From assembly GCF_020905335.1 (NCBI RefSeq), contig NZ_JAJJMN010000001.1, forward strand, positions 3,782,001 to 3,846,000: a DNA stretch of 64,000 nt. Reading direction: 5' to 3'. A program made the translations under genes and the position numbers. Source of the DNA: Flavobacterium lipolyticum. Its GTDB lineage: Bacteria > Bacteroidota > Bacteroidia > Flavobacteriales > Flavobacteriaceae. The notes under the pieces are model-generated. The model was not told where the DNA came from. It ran no database searches and worked only from the letters and a program-made list of their open reading frames with translations. How positions within the stretch are numbered: the stretch's first letter is position 1; every line of letters begins with the position of its first letter. Positions 5,698 to 12,061 of this stretch are shown here, piece by piece.

Positions 5698-6066
5698 CTA
5701 TAAAAATCGTTTTATTCGCAGTAAAAGTTCATTTGGATTAAAGGGTTTAGCAATAAAATCGTCTACACCCAATTGAAAAGCTTCTTCAACAGTGTTTTCT
5801 TCTTCTCCCAGTGAAGAAAGTGCAATAACACGGATATCATTGTAATTTTGCTTGATTTCATTGATAATTTCCAGACCGGATTTAAGAGGTACGGTAATCG
5901 TGGTAATCACCAAATCCGGCATAATAACAGGAAGCCGCTCCATGGCATTGATACCATCTTTTGCGATACTTACTTTGAAGCCTTCTTTTTTTAGAATGAA
6001 TTTTAAAATCTCAACAGTCATATCATCATTATCGATGATCATAATTTTTTTATTGGTAGTATCCAT
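5698..6066 (-). CDS. Stand-alone receiver-domain protein lacking the phospho-acceptor Asp
   Basis: A 122-residue single CheY-like receiver domain. The acidic pocket (D12, D14, D15), the Ser pair at 84-85 and the conserved Lys (K107 in AKPF) are present. At the position of the phosphorylated Asp (normally PDLVLLDxxMP) the sequence reads P50-DLVIT-T56-ITVP, so Thr replaces Asp. It probably cannot be phosphorylated in the usual way and may act as a constitutive or ligand-gated interaction domain. It has no output domain. It is the last gene of the HEAT/GT2/YaiO/DUF4838 operon, starting 8 nt after DUF4838, so it may control that machinery by protein contact. Confidence 0.9.
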   Translation of the reverse strand: MDTTNKKIMIIDNDDMTVEILKFILKKEGFKVSIAKDGINAMERLPVIMPDLVITTITVPLKSGLEIINEIKQNYNDIRVIALSSLGEEENTVEEAFQLGVDDFIAKPFNPNELLLRIKRFL

Positions 6067-6074
6067 TTCGACTA

Positions 6075-8288
6075 TTATTTTTTATACAACTCTATTTCGT
6101 CCAGCATTATCATTGCTTTTTTGTTTTTTCGCTTTCTCCAGACGGGCAATTCCTTCTGGTTTTCTACTACGATTTTGATCTTGGTAAAACTACTGAATCT
6201 CTGATTTTCGACTTCCCATGATTGTGTTGTAATTTCGTAGTCTTCTGTTAAATTGTTGCAAATTTGCTCTTTAATAAGTTCCCATTTCTGATTCTTAAAA
6301 CCATAGATTTTTATTTTTTTTGGTGTAAAAATCCAATGTCTCTGATCGTTTAGGAAATTTAATTTTAAGAGGTTGAAATCAAGATTTTTGGTTTCGATTT
6401 CAATTTCCGGATTCGCATCATACCATCCAATCCAGTTGATATTAAAGTTTTTGTACCCTATGTTTCCATCAACCAAACCATAACTTCCTTTGCCTTTAAA
6501 CTCATCAGATGGAGGTATTATAAAGGTAACTTTCAGGTCCTCGCCTAAATGAGTAGTGGTGTTTTTGCCAATTTCAATCCATTCTTTATAATAATTATCA
6601 GGAGAAATTCCGTCTTCGCTCAATTCATAAACTCCAAACTGATTGCAGGATTTTGAGAATTTTAGAACTCTTTCAGTTAAACCCGGTTTTACTTCTTTTT
6701 TGCCTTGGTTATTTACAACAAACATTCCGTGCTGGTTTTTTCCATAAAATTTGGCCTGCTCAAAATAAACAAATTCTAAAGCCAGTCGTAATTTATGAAC
6801 GCGTGAGCTTAAAATGGAATCATTTTCGACGGTATTATTGGCCTGTTCCAGAAAATGATCGTAGTGATCCATAGCTTCAGGCGTCAAGAACGTATTTCGC
6901 GCCTGTACAGGACCAGAATAAATATCTAAATAAGCTTTACTTTTGCTTTGATTGGCTTCTATGAGGTCAAGATATTTTGCGACATAGGGCGCTGCTTTTC
7001 CATAAAAACCTCTGAGGAAATCAGCAGTAACAGCTTTAATGTCAATATCAGTATTCCACATTAATTTTGCCAGGAGATATTGTCGCAATTCCGAAAGATC
7101 TCCCGGAACATCAGCATATCCCTGTACAAATAATCCCTTTACTTTGTTTTTTTGAAAGAGTTTATAGTTGTTTTGAAAAGATTCAAAATTAGGAAAAGGG
7201 GACATGAAATTAGAGAATTGAACGGTGTAGTCCCATAAAAATAGCTGTGGTGAAGTTGTGCTCCAGTTCTCAAGGTTTTTGATAAATGATGGATTGTTCT
7301 GATTGGTAATGGGTTTGCCGCGATCCAGTTCAATAGGGCATAAGATCGTATAAATGTTTGGAGCTATTTTCAGATTTACAGGAGGTTTGAAGGTATGAAG
7401 ATAGGCTAGGGTTGTAATTTTGGTTTTAGGAAAGTGAGCGGCGATTTTATTTAGAAAGTAATAAAACGAACCTTGCGGACCACCATATTTAGTGTTCATG
7501 GCTTTGCATTGCGTACATTCACAATACACGACGTCATCATTCTGGCTGACAGAATAGAATTGCGCATGGGGTGTTTTTGCGATAATTTCAGTCATTTTTT
7601 CCTCTACCAGATTCACAACAGTGTCATTGGTCATGCACAAAGATTCTGTATTTCGTTCTCCTTCGTACAAAGCAAAAAGTTGAGGATTAGTTTTAAAATA
7701 TTCTTTTGGCGGAACAAGCATGCTAAAAGAATGTCCCCAAAGACCAAAATCGTCAATGTGCCAGTCGAGTTTGTGCCAGTCCCTGAAATCTTCGTCATAA
7801 CAATCAGGGAAAAACAAAGCTCTGTAATCAAAAGAGGGCTGATAGATTTTACTTGTGTTTTTTGCAAAAGTAAACTGAGTTACTTTTGGAATATAAGTTT
7901 CTGTTGCGGTAAATTTCCTAAATTCCCAGATTTCGAGTAAAGTATAAACGGCATAGCGCAGGTATTTCTGATTTGGAGCCGTTATATAAATTGATTTTGA
8001 ATCGCTTTTGACATTGAATTCATTTGCTTTGAGTTTTTTATCATTGGAAATTTCCAGTATGATTTCGGAAGCATCACTCTCTTTTTGACTTTTTGTAGTA
8101 ATTTCAAATGGTTTCGACACGGATTTCTCCAGATATAATTTTAGTATTCCTGCCGCAGCCTGAGTACTTTCAGCGGTAGCAATAATTTTGGTTTTATCGG
8201 ATATTGTAATTTCAGATTGTGCCATCATCTTAAAACTAAGCAGGGTGAGAATAAATATTTGCAAATATTGAAGACGCTTTTTTTTCAT
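6075..8288 (-). CDS. DUF4838 domain protein, glycoside-hydrolase-like, exported
   Basis: A 737-residue exported protein with signal peptide MKKKRLQYLQIF...MMAQS. An N-terminal alpha/beta domain (about 25-150) resembles the N-domains of GH20/GH67/GH84 enzymes. A DUF4838 TIM-barrel-like region follows (about 160-470), with DYRALFFPDCYDEDF, SVSQNDD, a YCECTQCK cysteine cluster, and WDYTVQF. The C-terminal part (about 590-737) looks like a beta-sandwich. DUF4838 is grouped with alpha-glucuronidase-like hydrolases, but its substrate is unknown. In this operon it sits where PgaB-type glycan-modifying hydrolases sit in exopolysaccharide systems, which is an inference. It begins 5 nt after the YaiO gene and ends 8 nt before the receiver gene. 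Confidence 0.8.
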   Translation of the reverse strand: MKKKRLQYLQIFILTLLSFKMMAQSEITISDKTKIIATAESTQAAAGILKLYLEKSVSKPFEITTKSQKESDASEIILEISNDKKLKANEFNVKSDSKSIYITAPNQKYLRYAVYTLLEIWEFRKFTATETYIPKVTQFTFAKNTSKIYQPSFDYRALFFPDCYDEDFRDWHKLDWHIDDFGLWGHSFSMLVPPKEYFKTNPQLFALYEGERNTESLCMTNDTVVNLVEEKMTEIIAKTPHAQFYSVSQNDDVVYCECTQCKAMNTKYGGPQGSFYYFLNKIAAHFPKTKITTLAYLHTFKPPVNLKIAPNIYTILCPIELDRGKPITNQNNPSFIKNLENWSTTSPQLFLWDYTVQFSNFMSPFPNFESFQNNYKLFQKNKVKGLFVQGYADVPGDLSELRQYLLAKLMWNTDIDIKAVTADFLRGFYGKAAPYVAKYLDLIEANQSKSKAYLDIYSGPVQARNTFLTPEAMDHYDHFLEQANNTVENDSILSSRVHKLRLALEFVYFEQAKFYGKNQHGMFVVNNQGKKEVKPGLTERVLKFSKSCNQFGVYELSEDGISPDNYYKEWIEIGKNTTTHLGEDLKVTFIIPPSDEFKGKGSYGLVDGNIGYKNFNINWIGWYDANPEIEIETKNLDFNLLKLNFLNDQRHWIFTPKKIKIYGFKNQKWELIKEQICNNLTEDYEITTQSWEVENQRFSSFTKIKIVVENQKELPVWRKRKNKKAMIMLDEIELYKK

Positions 8289-8293
8289 ACGAT

Positions 8294-9559
8294 TTAAAAT
8301 TTATATTGCAGTAAAAAAGCAAAATCAAGTTCGTTTTGAAACTTTTTAGGGGTGTATTCCTGTTGGTTGTTGGTGATTAATATTCCAAAAATATAATGGG
8401 TTCTGATTAATTTATAAAAGCCGGCACTCAGTCTGTACGAACTTAAAGAAGCTCTGTTTTCATATTCCGCTGCTCTGGTCTGATCGTCCGGTGAAGTTCC
8501 ATAACCTGCAATTAGGGTAAGATAATCAAACTTAGTTCCGTAATAGTAGCGGGAGGTAAGGGTAAAGGACGGTGCGTCTTTTTGAATGTAAGATCTTAAA
8601 TTGACCCAGTATGCCCCGAAGTATTTTCCTAATCCTACATTTAAAGTTTTTAAATTACTGTTGTCCTGCATTTCGATGTAGCGGAAGCCTAAATCTGCCT
8701 CCCAGCCTTTGGCGAAATTGTAGAAATAGCAATACCCTAATCTCCATTCAGGAAAAGCGATGTCACTGCTGTAGGCGACATCAATGTAGGAATAGTTGTT
8801 CTTCTTTCCCGAGAGGTAAGATTCGACTTCAAATTGAAGTCCGCTGGCCATGACCTGACTGGAAGATCGTCTTTCAGCATGGCTAACTCTTCCAATTAAA
8901 CTTCCCCAGGTACGTTGATGCGTATAATCGGCACTTGCCAGATGCCACGGGCCAACACCGTCGCGATCAATTGTGGTGAAGTTGTAATAAACACCCCCCC
9001 GATCCATATTAGTTCTGGAGTACAAGGCAAAAAGACGCTGTTCGATGTCGGCATCATTGGGGTATTTTGTTCTTATCGATTTGAGATTTTTTTCCTCATT
9101 TTTAGTGTCATTCTGCAGAGAATAAATTGCAATTCTTTTTAGCCTGAAGGTTTTGTTGTCGGGAAACTGGTCAATTGCTTTATTGGTTAAGACCAGAGCT
9201 TCATCGTAATTTTTCGCCTCTAAATCGATATTGATCAGATAGAGATAGGCATCCTCATAGGCCGGGTTTTTATCAATGACATAGTTATAGTAAAATCGGG
9301 CACTGTCTTTTGCTTTTGTCAGGTCATAATTTCGCCCCAATACCAAATAGAAATCCAGGTAGTCCGGAGCCAGTTTTTTTCCTAACTGAGCTCTCTGAAT
9401 ATTTGCTTTGTAGTCCGGACGGGCATTTCTCATGTCCTGAAGCACAACAGTCAAAAGGCTGTCAGTGTCTATTTTTCTTTGACCTTTTGTAGTTTGGCAA
9501 GTCAATAGAAATAAACAAAAAAGCAGTCTTATTAGAGCTATAGTTCTGTTATGTTTCAT
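8294..9559 (-). CDS. TPR plus YaiO-type outer-membrane beta-barrel protein
   Basis: I place the start at ATG 9557-9559 (MKHNRTIALIRLL...), because a signal peptide then follows directly. An ATG at 9589 is possible but would overlap the preceding gene. Residues of about 25-190 form tetratricopeptide repeats (AYLYLINIDLEAKNYDEAL and similar helices). The rest is a series of amphipathic strands ending in a terminal Phe (FAFLLQYKF), as in outer-membrane barrels of the YaiO family. The TPR-plus-barrel design is that of exopolysaccharide porins such as PgaA and BcsC. E. coli yaiO is likewise close to a glycosyltransferase gene (yaiP). It lies 7 nt after the GT2 gene. Confidence 0.85.
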   Translation of the reverse strand: MKHNRTIALIRLLFCLFLLTCQTTKGQRKIDTDSLLTVVLQDMRNARPDYKANIQRAQLGKKLAPDYLDFYLVLGRNYDLTKAKDSARFYYNYVIDKNPAYEDAYLYLINIDLEAKNYDEALVLTNKAIDQFPDNKTFRLKRIAIYSLQNDTKNEEKNLKSIRTKYPNDADIEQRLFALYSRTNMDRGGVYYNFTTIDRDGVGPWHLASADYTHQRTWGSLIGRVSHAERRSSSQVMASGLQFEVESYLSGKKNNYSYIDVAYSSDIAFPEWRLGYCYFYNFAKGWEADLGFRYIEMQDNSNLKTLNVGLGKYFGAYWVNLRSYIQKDAPSFTLTSRYYYGTKFDYLTLIAGYGTSPDDQTRAAEYENRASLSSYRLSAGFYKLIRTHYIFGILITNNQQEYTPKKFQNELDFAFLLQYKF

Positions 9560-9566
9560 GATCAGC

Positions 9567-11003
9567 TTATTTTTTAGTTGGACTTTCATATCCTTTACGG
9601 ACCATTACGCCCCAGTTTTGTTCTTTTCTTCGAAAGAAGAACCAATAGCCTTTCAGTGAGGCGTAAATCGTTATCGGATGGTACACAAAAGGCTCAAGTG
9701 CAGCCATCCCGATAAGAACCATTAATTCTTTATAATTGGCATAACTTTTATATAGTATTTCATCTATCAATATGGATATTATGGTTATGGAGAGATAGAA
9801 TAGATAGACTAATAAGCTTATAATCAGTAAATACTGGTAGTCGATCATTCCAAATATAAAACTGAAAATTAGAGTCAGAATACCAATAAATTCTATAATA
9901 GGAACTAAAAACTCAAAACTGAAAAAGAAAGGTAATACCAGAAAGGCTGTTCGTCCGTATTTTGGATTTAAAAACATTTTTCGATGTAAATACAAGGTTT
10001 GAACCAGTCCACGAGCCCATCGAATACGTTGTCTTAAGAATATTTTTCGCGTACTGGGAACTTCTGTCCAACAGAGTGATTCGGGAATGTATTTGATTAA
10101 GTATTTTTCTTTAGTATCGTGCATGTATTTTCGCATGCGCGTCACCAGTTCCATATCTTCACCTAAGGACTGATGCCAGTATCCACCCGCTTTAATCACA
10201 ATGTCTTTATCAAACATACCGAGACCTCCGGAAACCAAAAGCAGACCGTTTAGCTGACTCCATGCCATTCTTCCAAATAAAAAAGAGCGTACGTATTCTA
10301 ATTCCTGAAAACGCGGATACCATTCTTTAGGATAATGAACTTTAAACAAAAAGCCTTCCTTGATATCGCAGGAGTTTGAAATCCTGATTCCGGCTCCACA
10401 AGCAATGACACGAGTTTCATTTTCCATAAAGGGTTTGGCCAGTTTCAAAATAGTATCTCTTTTTAAAATACAATCTACATCAGTGCATAAAAAAAGGGGA
10501 TATTGCGACGAGTTTATCCCGGCATTTGCGGCATCAGCTTTGCTTTTTCCGTTTATTTTGTCGACAATCAGTAATTTCGAATAAACAGGATTCTTTGATT
10601 TATAATGCCCCCGAACGGGCTGCGTAGCTATTTTCTCCTGATAATAAAAGTCAATTTTAACCAGATCAAATTCGACAATTAGTTTTTCCAGTGTATCGTC
10701 AGAACTTCCATCATTGACAATAATGATTTCGTATTTCGGATAGGTAAGAGAGAGTAGGGATTTAACATTGTAAACGATATTTACCCCCTCATTAAAAGCG
10801 GGAGCCACAATGGAAACGCCCAGTATATGGTTCGAACGAATTAAAACCTCTTCTTCCAGGTATTTTTGATATTTTAAATGTTTTACGATCGCCCAGTAAG
10901 AAAGGACAGACAGGAAGATGTAGAACAGAATATACCCGATTGAAAAATGGATCACAAAGAGATTGTAACAGTGAATAATATAATGTAGAAAATCAGTTAT
11001 CAT
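9567..11003 (-). CDS. Processive family-2 glycosyltransferase (PgaC/hyaluronan-synthase-like)
   Basis: A 478-residue inner-membrane GT2 enzyme. A membrane segment lies at about residues 16-40. The catalytic domain has PAFNEG, NDGSSDD, the DxD-type site CTDVDC, the acceptor motif GEDMELV and the RQRIRWARG motif (QxxRW) that marks processive synthases. At least three membrane helices follow (LPFFFSFEFLVPIIEFIGIL and onward). These features predict polymerisation of a nucleotide-sugar into a glycan with export across the inner membrane. The sugar cannot be deduced. Its start overlaps the stop of the HEAT-repeat gene by 4 nt (ATGA), indicating translational coupling. Confidence 0.9.
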   Translation of the reverse strand: MITDFLHYIIHCYNLFVIHFSIGYILFYIFLSVLSYWAIVKHLKYQKYLEEEVLIRSNHILGVSIVAPAFNEGVNIVYNVKSLLSLTYPKYEIIIVNDGSSDDTLEKLIVEFDLVKIDFYYQEKIATQPVRGHYKSKNPVYSKLLIVDKINGKSKADAANAGINSSQYPLFLCTDVDCILKRDTILKLAKPFMENETRVIACGAGIRISNSCDIKEGFLFKVHYPKEWYPRFQELEYVRSFLFGRMAWSQLNGLLLVSGGLGMFDKDIVIKAGGYWHQSLGEDMELVTRMRKYMHDTKEKYLIKYIPESLCWTEVPSTRKIFLRQRIRWARGLVQTLYLHRKMFLNPKYGRTAFLVLPFFFSFEFLVPIIEFIGILTLIFSFIFGMIDYQYLLIISLLVYLFYLSITIISILIDEILYKSYANYKELMVLIGMAALEPFVYHPITIYASLKGYWFFFRRKEQNWGVMVRKGYESPTKK

Positions 11004-12061
11004 AGTTGTAATTCTCTAATGTGATTAATCATTTTTTGCGTATCGGAATCCTGTCTTCCCAATACATCTATACATACAGAATCGAGACCATTTAAAGCAG
11101 CTACCATTTTTAATTTAAGATCTTTGATTTCTTCTCTCGGAATTTGATGGTTTAAAAATGAGATTGTTTTTTCTGAGCCTACAATGGCAAGGGCATTCAG
11201 AATTTCCAATTGAAGTTCGATACTCTCCTGCTTAAATTGCAGTAATAAATCCTCTTCTGCCTCATACAGGTACAAGTCGCGAATGGCAATAATCACATCG
11301 GTTCTAAGGTTTTTATTTTCGTGTTTGAGCAATTTGATAATATCCTGTGATCTGTTTCTGTAATTGTAAAAAACCATAGTCATTACGGCTAATTTCAGAG
11401 TAGTAGGATTATCAGATTCTATCCAAAGTTCGATATCAGGTGGAATTGGTATGTTTTGCGAATGCAATACATCCATTATTTTTATGGTGGTACTGATGGA
11501 TACTTTTACCGGAATTTTATTAACGGCCTGCCAGTCTCCTTTGGTTAAAATCAGGTAAGCAATATTGGCGTTTGACCGGATAATTTTATTGGGATGAAAC
11601 AAATATTTTTTGATTAGAGCAATTCCGGGTTTATATCCCAAGGCTTGAAAATGATAAATGCCATCACATTTTTTATATTTTCTAAAATCCCGAAGTAAAC
11701 TTGCTGAATAATGGTTTAAACCCAGTTGTTTGTATATAATAAGAATGTTTTTGGCGGTTTTACCTTTTAAATTGCTTTTCATCCGAATCATATCGTCGAT
11801 AAGCATTTCTTTACACCAGGTTTTATGGATGGGAATTTCAGATCTGAATTTGGCAATTTTGTATTTCAGAATGCTTTCCTCCGGTTTTGAGAGTGTGATT
11901 TCTGTAAGGAAAATTTCGGACTTTCGTACAATGTGATGCCGGTAAGGAAGAGTGTATTGATAATGAATTCTTTTGAGTATTAATGCAAGTGCTAAAGCTA
12001 AACTTGTAAATACAAATAATGGGATGGCGTAGTGTTTTATATAACCTATAAAATGCTCCAT
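11000..12061 (-). CDS. Membrane-anchored HEAT-repeat protein
   Basis: A 353-residue protein with one N-terminal membrane helix (about 12-29, YAIPLFVFTSLALALALIL) and then mostly paired helices. The C-terminal half shows HEAT-like repeats (IIKLLKHENKNLRTDVIIAIRDL and ELQLEILNALAIVGSEKTISFL). HEAT solenoids are protein-binding scaffolds. As first gene of the operon and coupled to the glycosyltransferase, it is likely an accessory subunit of that synthase, taking the place of the small PgaD/Alg44-type partners. This is inference; no catalytic motif is visible. The gap to the upstream TIGR02757 gene is 71 nt, so the operon promoter may lie there or further upstream. Confidence 0.75.
   Translation of the reverse strand: MEHFIGYIKHYAIPLFVFTSLALALALILKRIHYQYTLPYRHHIVRKSEIFLTEITLSKPEESILKYKIAKFRSEIPIHKTWCKEMLIDDMIRMKSNLKGKTAKNILIIYKQLGLNHYSASLLRDFRKYKKCDGIYHFQALGYKPGIALIKKYLFHPNKIIRSNANIAYLILTKGDWQAVNKIPVKVSISTTIKIMDVLHSQNIPIPPDIELWIESDNPTTLKLAVMTMVFYNYRNRSQDIIKLLKHENKNLRTDVIIAIRDLYLYEAEEDLLLQFKQESIELQLEILNALAIVGSEKTISFLNHQIPREEIKDLKLKMVAALNGLDSVCIDVLGRQDSDTQKMINHIRELQL

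Follow-up and report, generated by a model that had tools for sequence, protein, structure and literature searches.

A five-gene operon of Bacteroidota resembling a synthase-dependent exopolysaccharide system

The window analyzed here is a 64,000-nucleotide stretch of the Flavobacterium lipolyticum genome (contig NZ_JAJJMN010000001.1). Five ORFs lie between its positions 5698 and 12061 on the minus strand, in the order HEAT, GT2, TPR-YaiO, DUF4838 and receiver, with the following features:

11000..12061, minus strand: HEAT-repeat protein, first operon gene (353 aa; one N-terminal TM helix plus solenoid)
11975..12031, minus strand: HEAT residues 11-29, a predicted TM segment (Kyte-Doolittle scan; followed by basic residues)
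9567..11003, minus strand: processive-type GT2 membrane glycosyltransferase (478 aa; several Pfam GT2 models match)
10473..10481, minus strand: GT2 DVD motif, residues 175-177 (invariant in 17 aligned proteins)
10155..10163, minus strand: GT2 GED motif, residues 281-283 (invariant in 17 aligned proteins)
10017..10031, minus strand: GT2 QRIRW motif, residues 325-329 (Q, both R residues and W invariant across the 17-protein alignment)
8294..9559, minus strand: TPR plus YaiO outer-membrane barrel protein (421 aa; N-terminal signal-like segment; ORF start possibly 9589)
9017..9466, minus strand: TPR scaffold, about residues 32-181 (AlphaFold2 model, mean pLDDT 92; TPR matches)
8300..9007, minus strand: 14-strand beta-barrel, residues 185-420 (strands counted in the AlphaFold2 model)
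6075..8288, minus strand: glycoside-hydrolase-like DUF4838 protein (737 aa with a signal-like N-terminus; sole PF16126 match in the genome)
7536..7538, minus strand: Asp251 of DUF4838, candidate catalytic residue with a putative role (invariant in 45 rows)
5698..6066, minus strand: stand-alone CheY-like receiver (122 aa; Response_reg 1.6e-23)
5899..5901, minus strand: receiver Thr56, occupying the phospho-acceptor site (73 of the 80 compared receivers have Asp here)

HEAT and GT2 overlap by 4 nt (11000-11003, spacing -4). The spacing is +7 nt from GT2 to YaiO with the YaiO ATG at 9559, +5 nt from YaiO to DUF4838 and +8 nt from DUF4838 to the receiver; an alternative, earlier YaiO ATG at 9589 would give a 23 nt overlap with GT2. 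The ORF coordinates and Pfam domains thus agree with the original prediction of five genes on one strand, spaced by -4 to +8 nt. A terminator-like structure 3' of the receiver gene received no support (z -1.0), and the terminator scan gave a count no higher than in shuffled sequence. Promoter-like sites numbered 34 against 21.2 expected, with a sigma-70 pattern that is ill-suited to Bacteroidota. A search of a defence-gene library gave weak receiver matches only. The five-gene operon is real and not a product of chance, since the same arrangement recurs across the phylum.

The GT2 has predicted membrane segments at both ends and possesses all the elements that define a processive membrane GT2 (DxD, (G/T)ED, QxxRW and TM segments); the QxxRW motif, on which the processive assignment had been based, was located as QRIRW. 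The YaiO protein matched Pfam YaiO (7.5e-43) together with TPR_19, and it scored above the cut-offs of both PF19413 (146.9 bits versus 23.9) and TIGR04390 (95.9 versus 32). In its AlphaFold2 model, a predicted periplasmic TPR scaffold is joined to an outer-membrane barrel, consistent with the Pfam matches and with the TPR-plus-YaiO barrel described originally. The size of this barrel had been singled out for a check; with 14 strands, the modeled barrel is large enough to be a plausible exporter. The first solved match of the model in Foldseek was the cellulose exporter BcsC, with PelBC eleventh, and OmpG, CymA and FadL-type barrels were also matched. In VIA-align, porin-like barrels led and BcsC was not among the 50 matches listed. 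PgaA was not among the matches listed in the YaiO fold searches, which excludes nothing.

The HEAT protein combines one predicted TM segment with a HEAT_2 match (2.5e-4) that falls below the gathering score in the window protein and above it in four scanned relatives, in line with its earlier description as a HEAT-repeat membrane protein. Its solenoid would be cytoplasmic. No HEAT-GT2 or HEAT-receiver gene fusions were flagged among the examined loci. Loci L114-L121 have eight long HEAT ORFs (481-931 aa), none of which extends into GT2; in the four of these ORFs that were scanned, the remainder gave HEAT or weak matches only.

The DUF4838 protein scored 307.1 bits (1.9e-91), above the Pfam cut-off of 26.6, and also matched Glyco_hydro_20b (5.4e-6). 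It comprises a GH20b-like N domain, an (alpha/beta)8-like middle domain and a C-terminal beta domain; Asp251 follows putative barrel strand 4 in the model, which resembles GH20, GH84 and GH115 hydrolases in fold searches. GH115 alpha-glucuronidases gave TM-scores of 0.41-0.46, as compared with 0.30 for BT0459, and the profile match to BT0459 covers the N- and C-terminal domains but not the barrel; the sugar of the polymer is therefore not fixed. The predicted fold fits a PgaB-like role, and the absence of PgaB from the matches listed in the DUF4838 fold searches excludes nothing. At some relatives' loci, an LtaS-like sulfatase-fold enzyme takes the place of DUF4838, in some cases fused to GT2; this enzyme is reminiscent of BcsG. 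The LtaS profile was built from six loci that it labels, all six proteins having been checked with Pfam.

To describe the neighborhood of the operon, we used the best 80 of 540 relatives and excluded L075, where no ORF reached the GT2 threshold. In the resulting 79 named Bacteroidota loci, HEAT adjoins GT2 in 78 and YaiO is found at a distance of up to 6 kb in 72; a receiver is nearby in 63 (stand-alone and on the same strand in 60) and DUF4838 is present in 46. Some of the seven loci without YaiO within 6 kb are on short contigs. Only near receivers were counted, because the receiver profile cannot separate the operon receiver from other CheY-like proteins. L047 and L055, which come from the same genomes as L022 and L023, are inside the 79 and outside the tree; for the tree, alignment columns with fewer than half of the rows occupied were removed, and the length cut was possibly not applied to every fused GT2 row. 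The 111-locus set is not made up of independent loci throughout (L118 seems to be the same genome as L051), and 16 phylum loci were hand-picked from 45 strong HEAT matches, with long or weak ones favored. The gap in L019 and L020, about 250 bp long, contained no convincing YaiO remnant. Like the loci that lack YaiO within 6 kb, two genomes count against the export reading: in G003 and G010, the latter with two copies, YaiO does not neighbor GT2, and one copy lies elsewhere in either genome.

Among 296 sampled phylum genomes, YaiO (better than 1e-30 and reaching the barrel) was present in 38 of the 40 that bear HEAT (E<=1e-12) versus 14 of the 256 others; because no more than six candidates were scored in most of the genomes, absences are provisional. 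The operon families thus occur widely together across Bacteroidota, as the original prediction had proposed to check. We found no description of the operon in the literature searched, which mostly leaves out subscription journals and bioRxiv preprints; within that scope, the view that the combination had not been characterized holds. The gene set is conserved in many Bacteroidota and apparently unstudied.

Most of what is known about synthase-dependent polysaccharides comes from Proteobacteria, where c-di-GMP acts as the switch; such control is frequent in known systems but not universal. A genome-wide search found neither GGDEF nor PilZ in the window genome. GGDEF was found in 157 of the 296 phylum genomes and in none of the other 139; it occurs in five of the 40 HEAT carriers, all five being among the eight carriers outside the window's class, so that distant carriers may use c-di-GMP. 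PilZ gave one sub-threshold match in the 296 genomes, and its absence from the 40 carriers is therefore not specific to them. Phosphorelay control of the system is suggested by the receivers, some of which have hybrid kinases nearby. Given its presence in 63 of the 79 loci from the best 80 of 540 relatives, the receiver is closer to the core than an add-on. HEAT had been put in PgaD's place by itself; HEAT together with the receiver corresponds better to the control part. The gene order would be consistent with a contact between HEAT and the receiver. Since the receivers of the window's clade lack the phospho-aspartate, their control is probably phosphorylation-independent or locked.

We compared the operon with known systems. 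It resembles Pga (PgaABCD, poly-beta-1,6-GlcNAc, E. coli) in its PgaC-nearest GT2, predicted TPR-barrel exporter and exported protein of predicted glycoside-hydrolase type. By contrast, its 14-strand barrel belongs to a 421-aa protein as opposed to the 807 aa of PgaA, DUF4838 replaces PgaB, and HEAT plus receiver replace PgaD plus c-di-GMP. The proposed Pga plan with replaced parts is retained for the synthase, the TPR-barrel and the hydrolase-like protein, while the receiver is nearer the core and DUF4838, in spite of a fold that suits PgaB's place, is an interchangeable accessory. The Bcs cellulose system (BcsABCZ, BcsG) likewise has the TPR-barrel fold and a hydrolase in its cluster, but the window GT2 is only distantly BcsA-like (20.8 bits) and has no Pfam match to a PilZ domain, and the operon has no BcsB-type gene. 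GT2, TPR-barrel and periplasmic protein also make up E. coli NfrA/NfrB/YbcH, whose polymer is still uncharacterised according to PMC8669469. NfrB, however, has a c-di-GMP-binding MshEN domain, for which the window GT2 gave no Pfam match at E<=0.1, and sequence similarity is weak (E 0.003 for YaiO with NfrA, 0.47 for GT2 with NfrB). E. coli yaiO-yaiX-yaiP-yaiS shares the YaiO family name and a nearby GT2, but includes acyltransferase and deacetylase accessories. The parallel drawn earlier with yaiO and yaiP proved weak: an IS2-broken yaiX separates the two genes, and the 257-aa E. coli YaiO gave no blastp alignment to the window YaiO at E<=10.

Could the operon be a divergent Pga system whose product is ordinary PNAG and whose accessory parts are non-homologous? 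Among NCBIfam models the GT2 scores best with PgaC_IcaA, among four E. coli synthases compared it is nearest to PgaC, and a polymer of beta-GlcNAc would fit with a GH20/GH84-like hydrolase. We nevertheless regard this as unlikely: the model score is 111.5 bits, far under the cut-off of 422.3, identity to PgaC is 25% over 305 residues, the operon shows no PgaB or PgaD family match and no meaningful alignment to either E. coli protein, and the genome lacks GGDEF and PilZ.

Very unlikely, in our view, is a GT2 whose product is a short oligosaccharide or a glycosylated lipid or surface protein, with YaiO as a barrel for structure or uptake and DUF4838 scavenging environmental glycans. The NodC model does match the GT2 weakly (40.6 bits). 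In PMC9870897, a Polaribacter DUF4838 protein labelled endo-beta-N-acetylglucosaminidase (GH163) is among the CAZymes enriched with algal exometabolites, and according to PMC10154615, a B. thetaiotaomicron GH163 cleaves host N-glycans. Yet the QxxRW motif and the membrane segments at both GT2 ends speak against it, and the Pfam scan found no importer gene in the operon. Unlike the GH163, GH20, GH84 and GH115 enzymes, the window DUF4838, whose hydrolase activity is predicted, is encoded beside a synthase and a barrel protein, and 46 of the 79 loci drawn from the best 80 of 540 relatives have DUF4838 in one operon with the synthase. The least probable of these readings is a periplasmic glucan of the OPG/MDO type, in which GT2 and an LtaS/OpgB-like decorating enzyme produce a polymer that stays in the periplasm. 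In its favor, the LtaS-like enzymes of relatives, some GT2-fused, match models of phosphoglycerol transferase I and of the OpgB type below the cut-offs. Against this, 72 of the 79 loci drawn from the best 80 of 540 relatives pair GT2 with a YaiO protein, BcsC is matched by the YaiO model, the Pfam scan found no LtaS-like gene in the window operon, and no Opg model matched the GT2 in the NCBIfam scan.

We conclude that the operon is probably an uncharacterised synthase-dependent exopolysaccharide system of Bacteroidota, as indicated by the gene set, motifs, conservation and co-occurrence at the sequence level and by the predicted barrel and hydrolase folds. In such a system, GT2 would polymerise a sugar nucleotide, most likely into a beta-linked, N-acetylhexosamine-containing chain, and pass the chain across the inner membrane. 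With its TPR part, the YaiO protein would then guide the chain over the periplasm to the 14-strand barrel as the exit, and the exported DUF4838 enzyme may trim, release or edit it, like PgaB or BcsZ in their own systems. The HEAT solenoid, anchored on the cytoplasmic side beside the synthase, would be the control subunit on which the CheY-like receiver docks, with a phosphorelay in the role of c-di-GMP. More tentatively, the operon may represent a phylum-wide synthase class in which a phosphorelay receiver gates the synthase directly via a membrane-anchored HEAT solenoid without PilZ-type c-di-GMP control, with exchangeable DUF4838 or LtaS-like editors, a fixed chromosomal site in Flavobacterium and a phosphate-independent pseudo-receiver in the window's clade.

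These results offer a candidate function for DUF4838, YaiO and HEAT proteins, which sources name by domain or as hypothetical. The candidate module is testable, and its HEAT marker occurs in 40 of the 296 sampled phylum genomes. For genomes without GGDEF (139 of 296, the window genome also lacking PilZ), it is a candidate route of polymer control.

ORF analysis of the window placed five tightly packed genes on the minus strand at 12061–5698, separated by -4, +7, +5 and +8 nt, in this order:

HEAT-repeat membrane protein, 353 aa, minus strand, first gene transcribed
GT2 synthase, 478 aa, minus strand, second gene
TPR-YaiO barrel protein, 421 aa counted from the ATG at 9559, minus strand, third gene
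DUF4838 hydrolase-like protein, 737 aa, minus strand, fourth gene
Stand-alone receiver, 122 aa, minus strand, fifth gene

All five labels were backed by Pfam matches, that of HEAT being sub-threshold in the window protein and above the cut-off in four scanned relatives. Pfam also identified the flanking genes, DUF2400 upstream and a DEAD-box helicase downstream. The genome measures 5.77 Mb, and the closest named GT2 (98%) among the best 80 of 540 relatives is that of Flavobacterium tructae. Close to the operon, on the other strand, is a gene for NAGPA (phosphodiester glycosidase, PF09992; 13686–14456, plus).

We examined how widely this arrangement is conserved. A search with the HEAT protein matched 15 of 40 genomes (its own and relatives), from which 16 matching loci were retrieved; GT2 adjoined HEAT in every one. 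From the 540 relatives found in a GT2 profile scan of named genomes, the best 80 loci were kept, 79 of them with a usable GT2 ORF. In this set, HEAT directly adjoined GT2 on the same strand in 78/79 loci, YaiO lay within 6 kb in 72 (same strand in 66, opposite in 6) and was not found within that distance in 7, a receiver was present in 63 (stand-alone and on the same strand in 60), DUF4838 in 46 and an LtaS-like domain in 9. The hosts include Flavobacterium, Polaribacter, Psychroflexus, Belliella, Litoribacter, Pedobacter, Mucilaginibacter, Chitinophaga and Olivibacter. Two loci filed as Rhizobium and Beijerinckiaceae (L061 and L071) hold a Bacteroidota-type operon and are probably misbinned metagenome contigs. 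In an even phylum sample of 296 genomes, 40 had a strong HEAT match (hereafter carriers), 52 a YaiO barrel and 38 both (Fisher p 9.5e-34), with YaiO within 8 kb of 37 of the 45 HEAT matches. At 16 hand-picked loci from this sample, GT2 always adjoined HEAT, and YaiO (within 6 kb) and a stand-alone receiver were each present in 14. The genes are thus found together across relatives, and the original prediction of a Pga-like exopolysaccharide operon therefore withstands the objection that they might rarely co-occur. The operon is real and widespread.

HEAT and GT2 form the core of the module, YaiO and the receiver are nearly core, and the enzyme slot varies between loci. DUF4838 is carried by the window's clade, Polaribacter loci and many Chitinophaga loci; in other relatives a sulfatase-fold enzyme (PF00884; LtaS/OpgB-like) takes its place, as a separate gene preceding YaiO (L025, L026, L027, L029) or as a domain fused to the C-end of GT2 in one 1145-aa protein (L030:10972-14409, L032:6437-9874). 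Judged from its domains, this fusion would combine a synthase with a possible decorating enzyme of the phosphoglycerol or phosphoethanolamine type in a single protein. Both enzymes are nearby in L042, L045 and L106. On a quick GT2 tree, with E. coli PgaC as a very long outgroup branch and two-GT2 loci counted twice, enzyme states cluster, yet more than a few switches are required (the four states take 22 changes, versus a shuffled mean of 44.5). At 25 Flavobacterium loci (24 genomes; L022 and L047 share one), the operon stretch also has genes closely related to the DUF2400 and DEAD-helicase genes of the window, and variously contains DUF4838 alone, an LtaS-like domain alone, the two together or none of them. 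The Flavobacterium operon is therefore a fixed chromosomal site with exchangeable contents.

Further genes accompany some loci. A 384–393-aa protein is encoded between the LtaS-like gene and YaiO (L106:13477-14631, L111:9534-10700, also L095 and L109); an NCBIfam search with the L111 copy gave no match, nor did a Pfam scan of similarly sized proteins in L119 and L121. A lipoprotein-like gene (~160–190 aa) follows DUF4838 in Polaribacter and non-Polaribacter loci (for example L100:16437-16979, L101:16624-17193), the L100 protein matching the OS_HP2 family below the NCBIfam cut-off. In Chitinophaga and relatives (L066–L093), two tandem GT2 genes, perhaps for a mixed polymer, lie between HEAT and a long TPR-YaiO protein, mostly of about 900–1000 aa. 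Two GT2 ORFs occur in 22 of the 79 named loci (best 80 of 540 relatives), including L054, which looks like a split gene.

Besides the opposite-strand YaiO genes and the loci with none within 6 kb, it counts against the predicted system that YaiO can also be found apart from the operon. Genomes G003 and G010, the latter with two tandem HEAT-GT2 sets, have no YaiO with the operon and one full copy elsewhere. In these two Flavobacterium-type genomes the displaced YaiO is divergent from the gene for phosphoglucosamine mutase (L130:6426-7715, L131:2101-3351), an enzyme of the UDP-GlcNAc pathway. Retention of a relocated YaiO supports a need for it, two related cases proving little. In 14 phylum-sample genomes YaiO was present and HEAT gave no strong match, so that YaiO may have uses outside this operon as well, unless the HEAT partner was missed there.

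We then considered control by c-di-GMP. Searches of this genome found neither GGDEF nor PilZ, while detecting both families in control genomes. PilZ is practically absent from the same 296 phylum genomes (one match, below the cut-off) in which 157 have GGDEF, and its absence from all 40 carriers is therefore not specific. GGDEF occurs in 5/40 carriers, a difference that follows taxonomy, because it is found in 0/32 carriers within the window's class versus 5/8 outside. For this genome and the carriers of its class, the result that holds is that the switch cannot be c-di-GMP produced by GGDEF proteins.

Receivers, not PilZ or GGDEF, sit beside HEAT-GT2. A same-strand receiver-bearing ORF of more than 400 aa lies within 6 kb in 15/111 loci; all 11 scanned contain HisKA, HATPase and receiver domains, and eight also Hpt (L030, L031, L032, L033, L114, L117, L120, L123), which L115 encodes separately. 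Most loci have no nearby kinase. These hybrid-kinase ORFs, many with Hpt, point to a recurring layout, a predicted phosphorelay ending in a single-domain receiver beside the HEAT-GT2 pair. The phospho-acceptor is Asp in 73 of 80 receivers (L018–L113, some loci giving two) and Thr or Asn in the other seven, which belong to the window and to near relatives of it (L034, L035, L036, L038, L053, L054). The window receiver also has Asn at one position of the acidic pocket, a residue shared there by five more of the 80. In the window's clade, aspartyl phosphorylation at the acceptor site is impossible.

In a published study, GT2 gene MED152_03905 and DUF4838 gene MED152_03915 of P. dokdonensis MED152 rose 8.8-fold and 18.5-fold, respectively, in co-culture with the alga Micromonas, and were classed as enriched CAZymes outside PULs (PMC9870897). 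By locus tag, the two genes fit the Polaribacter layout HEAT-GT2-YaiO-DUF4838 (L097, L100, L101, L108, L112); another reading of the induction is an induced surface polymer. We found no description of the operon in the literature searched. The operon is best read as a putative synthase-dependent exopolysaccharide system in which HEAT and the receiver would exert control: the overall plan of synthase, TPR-barrel and hydrolase is already known, which is not so for the control parts (HEAT and receiver) and the enzyme set.
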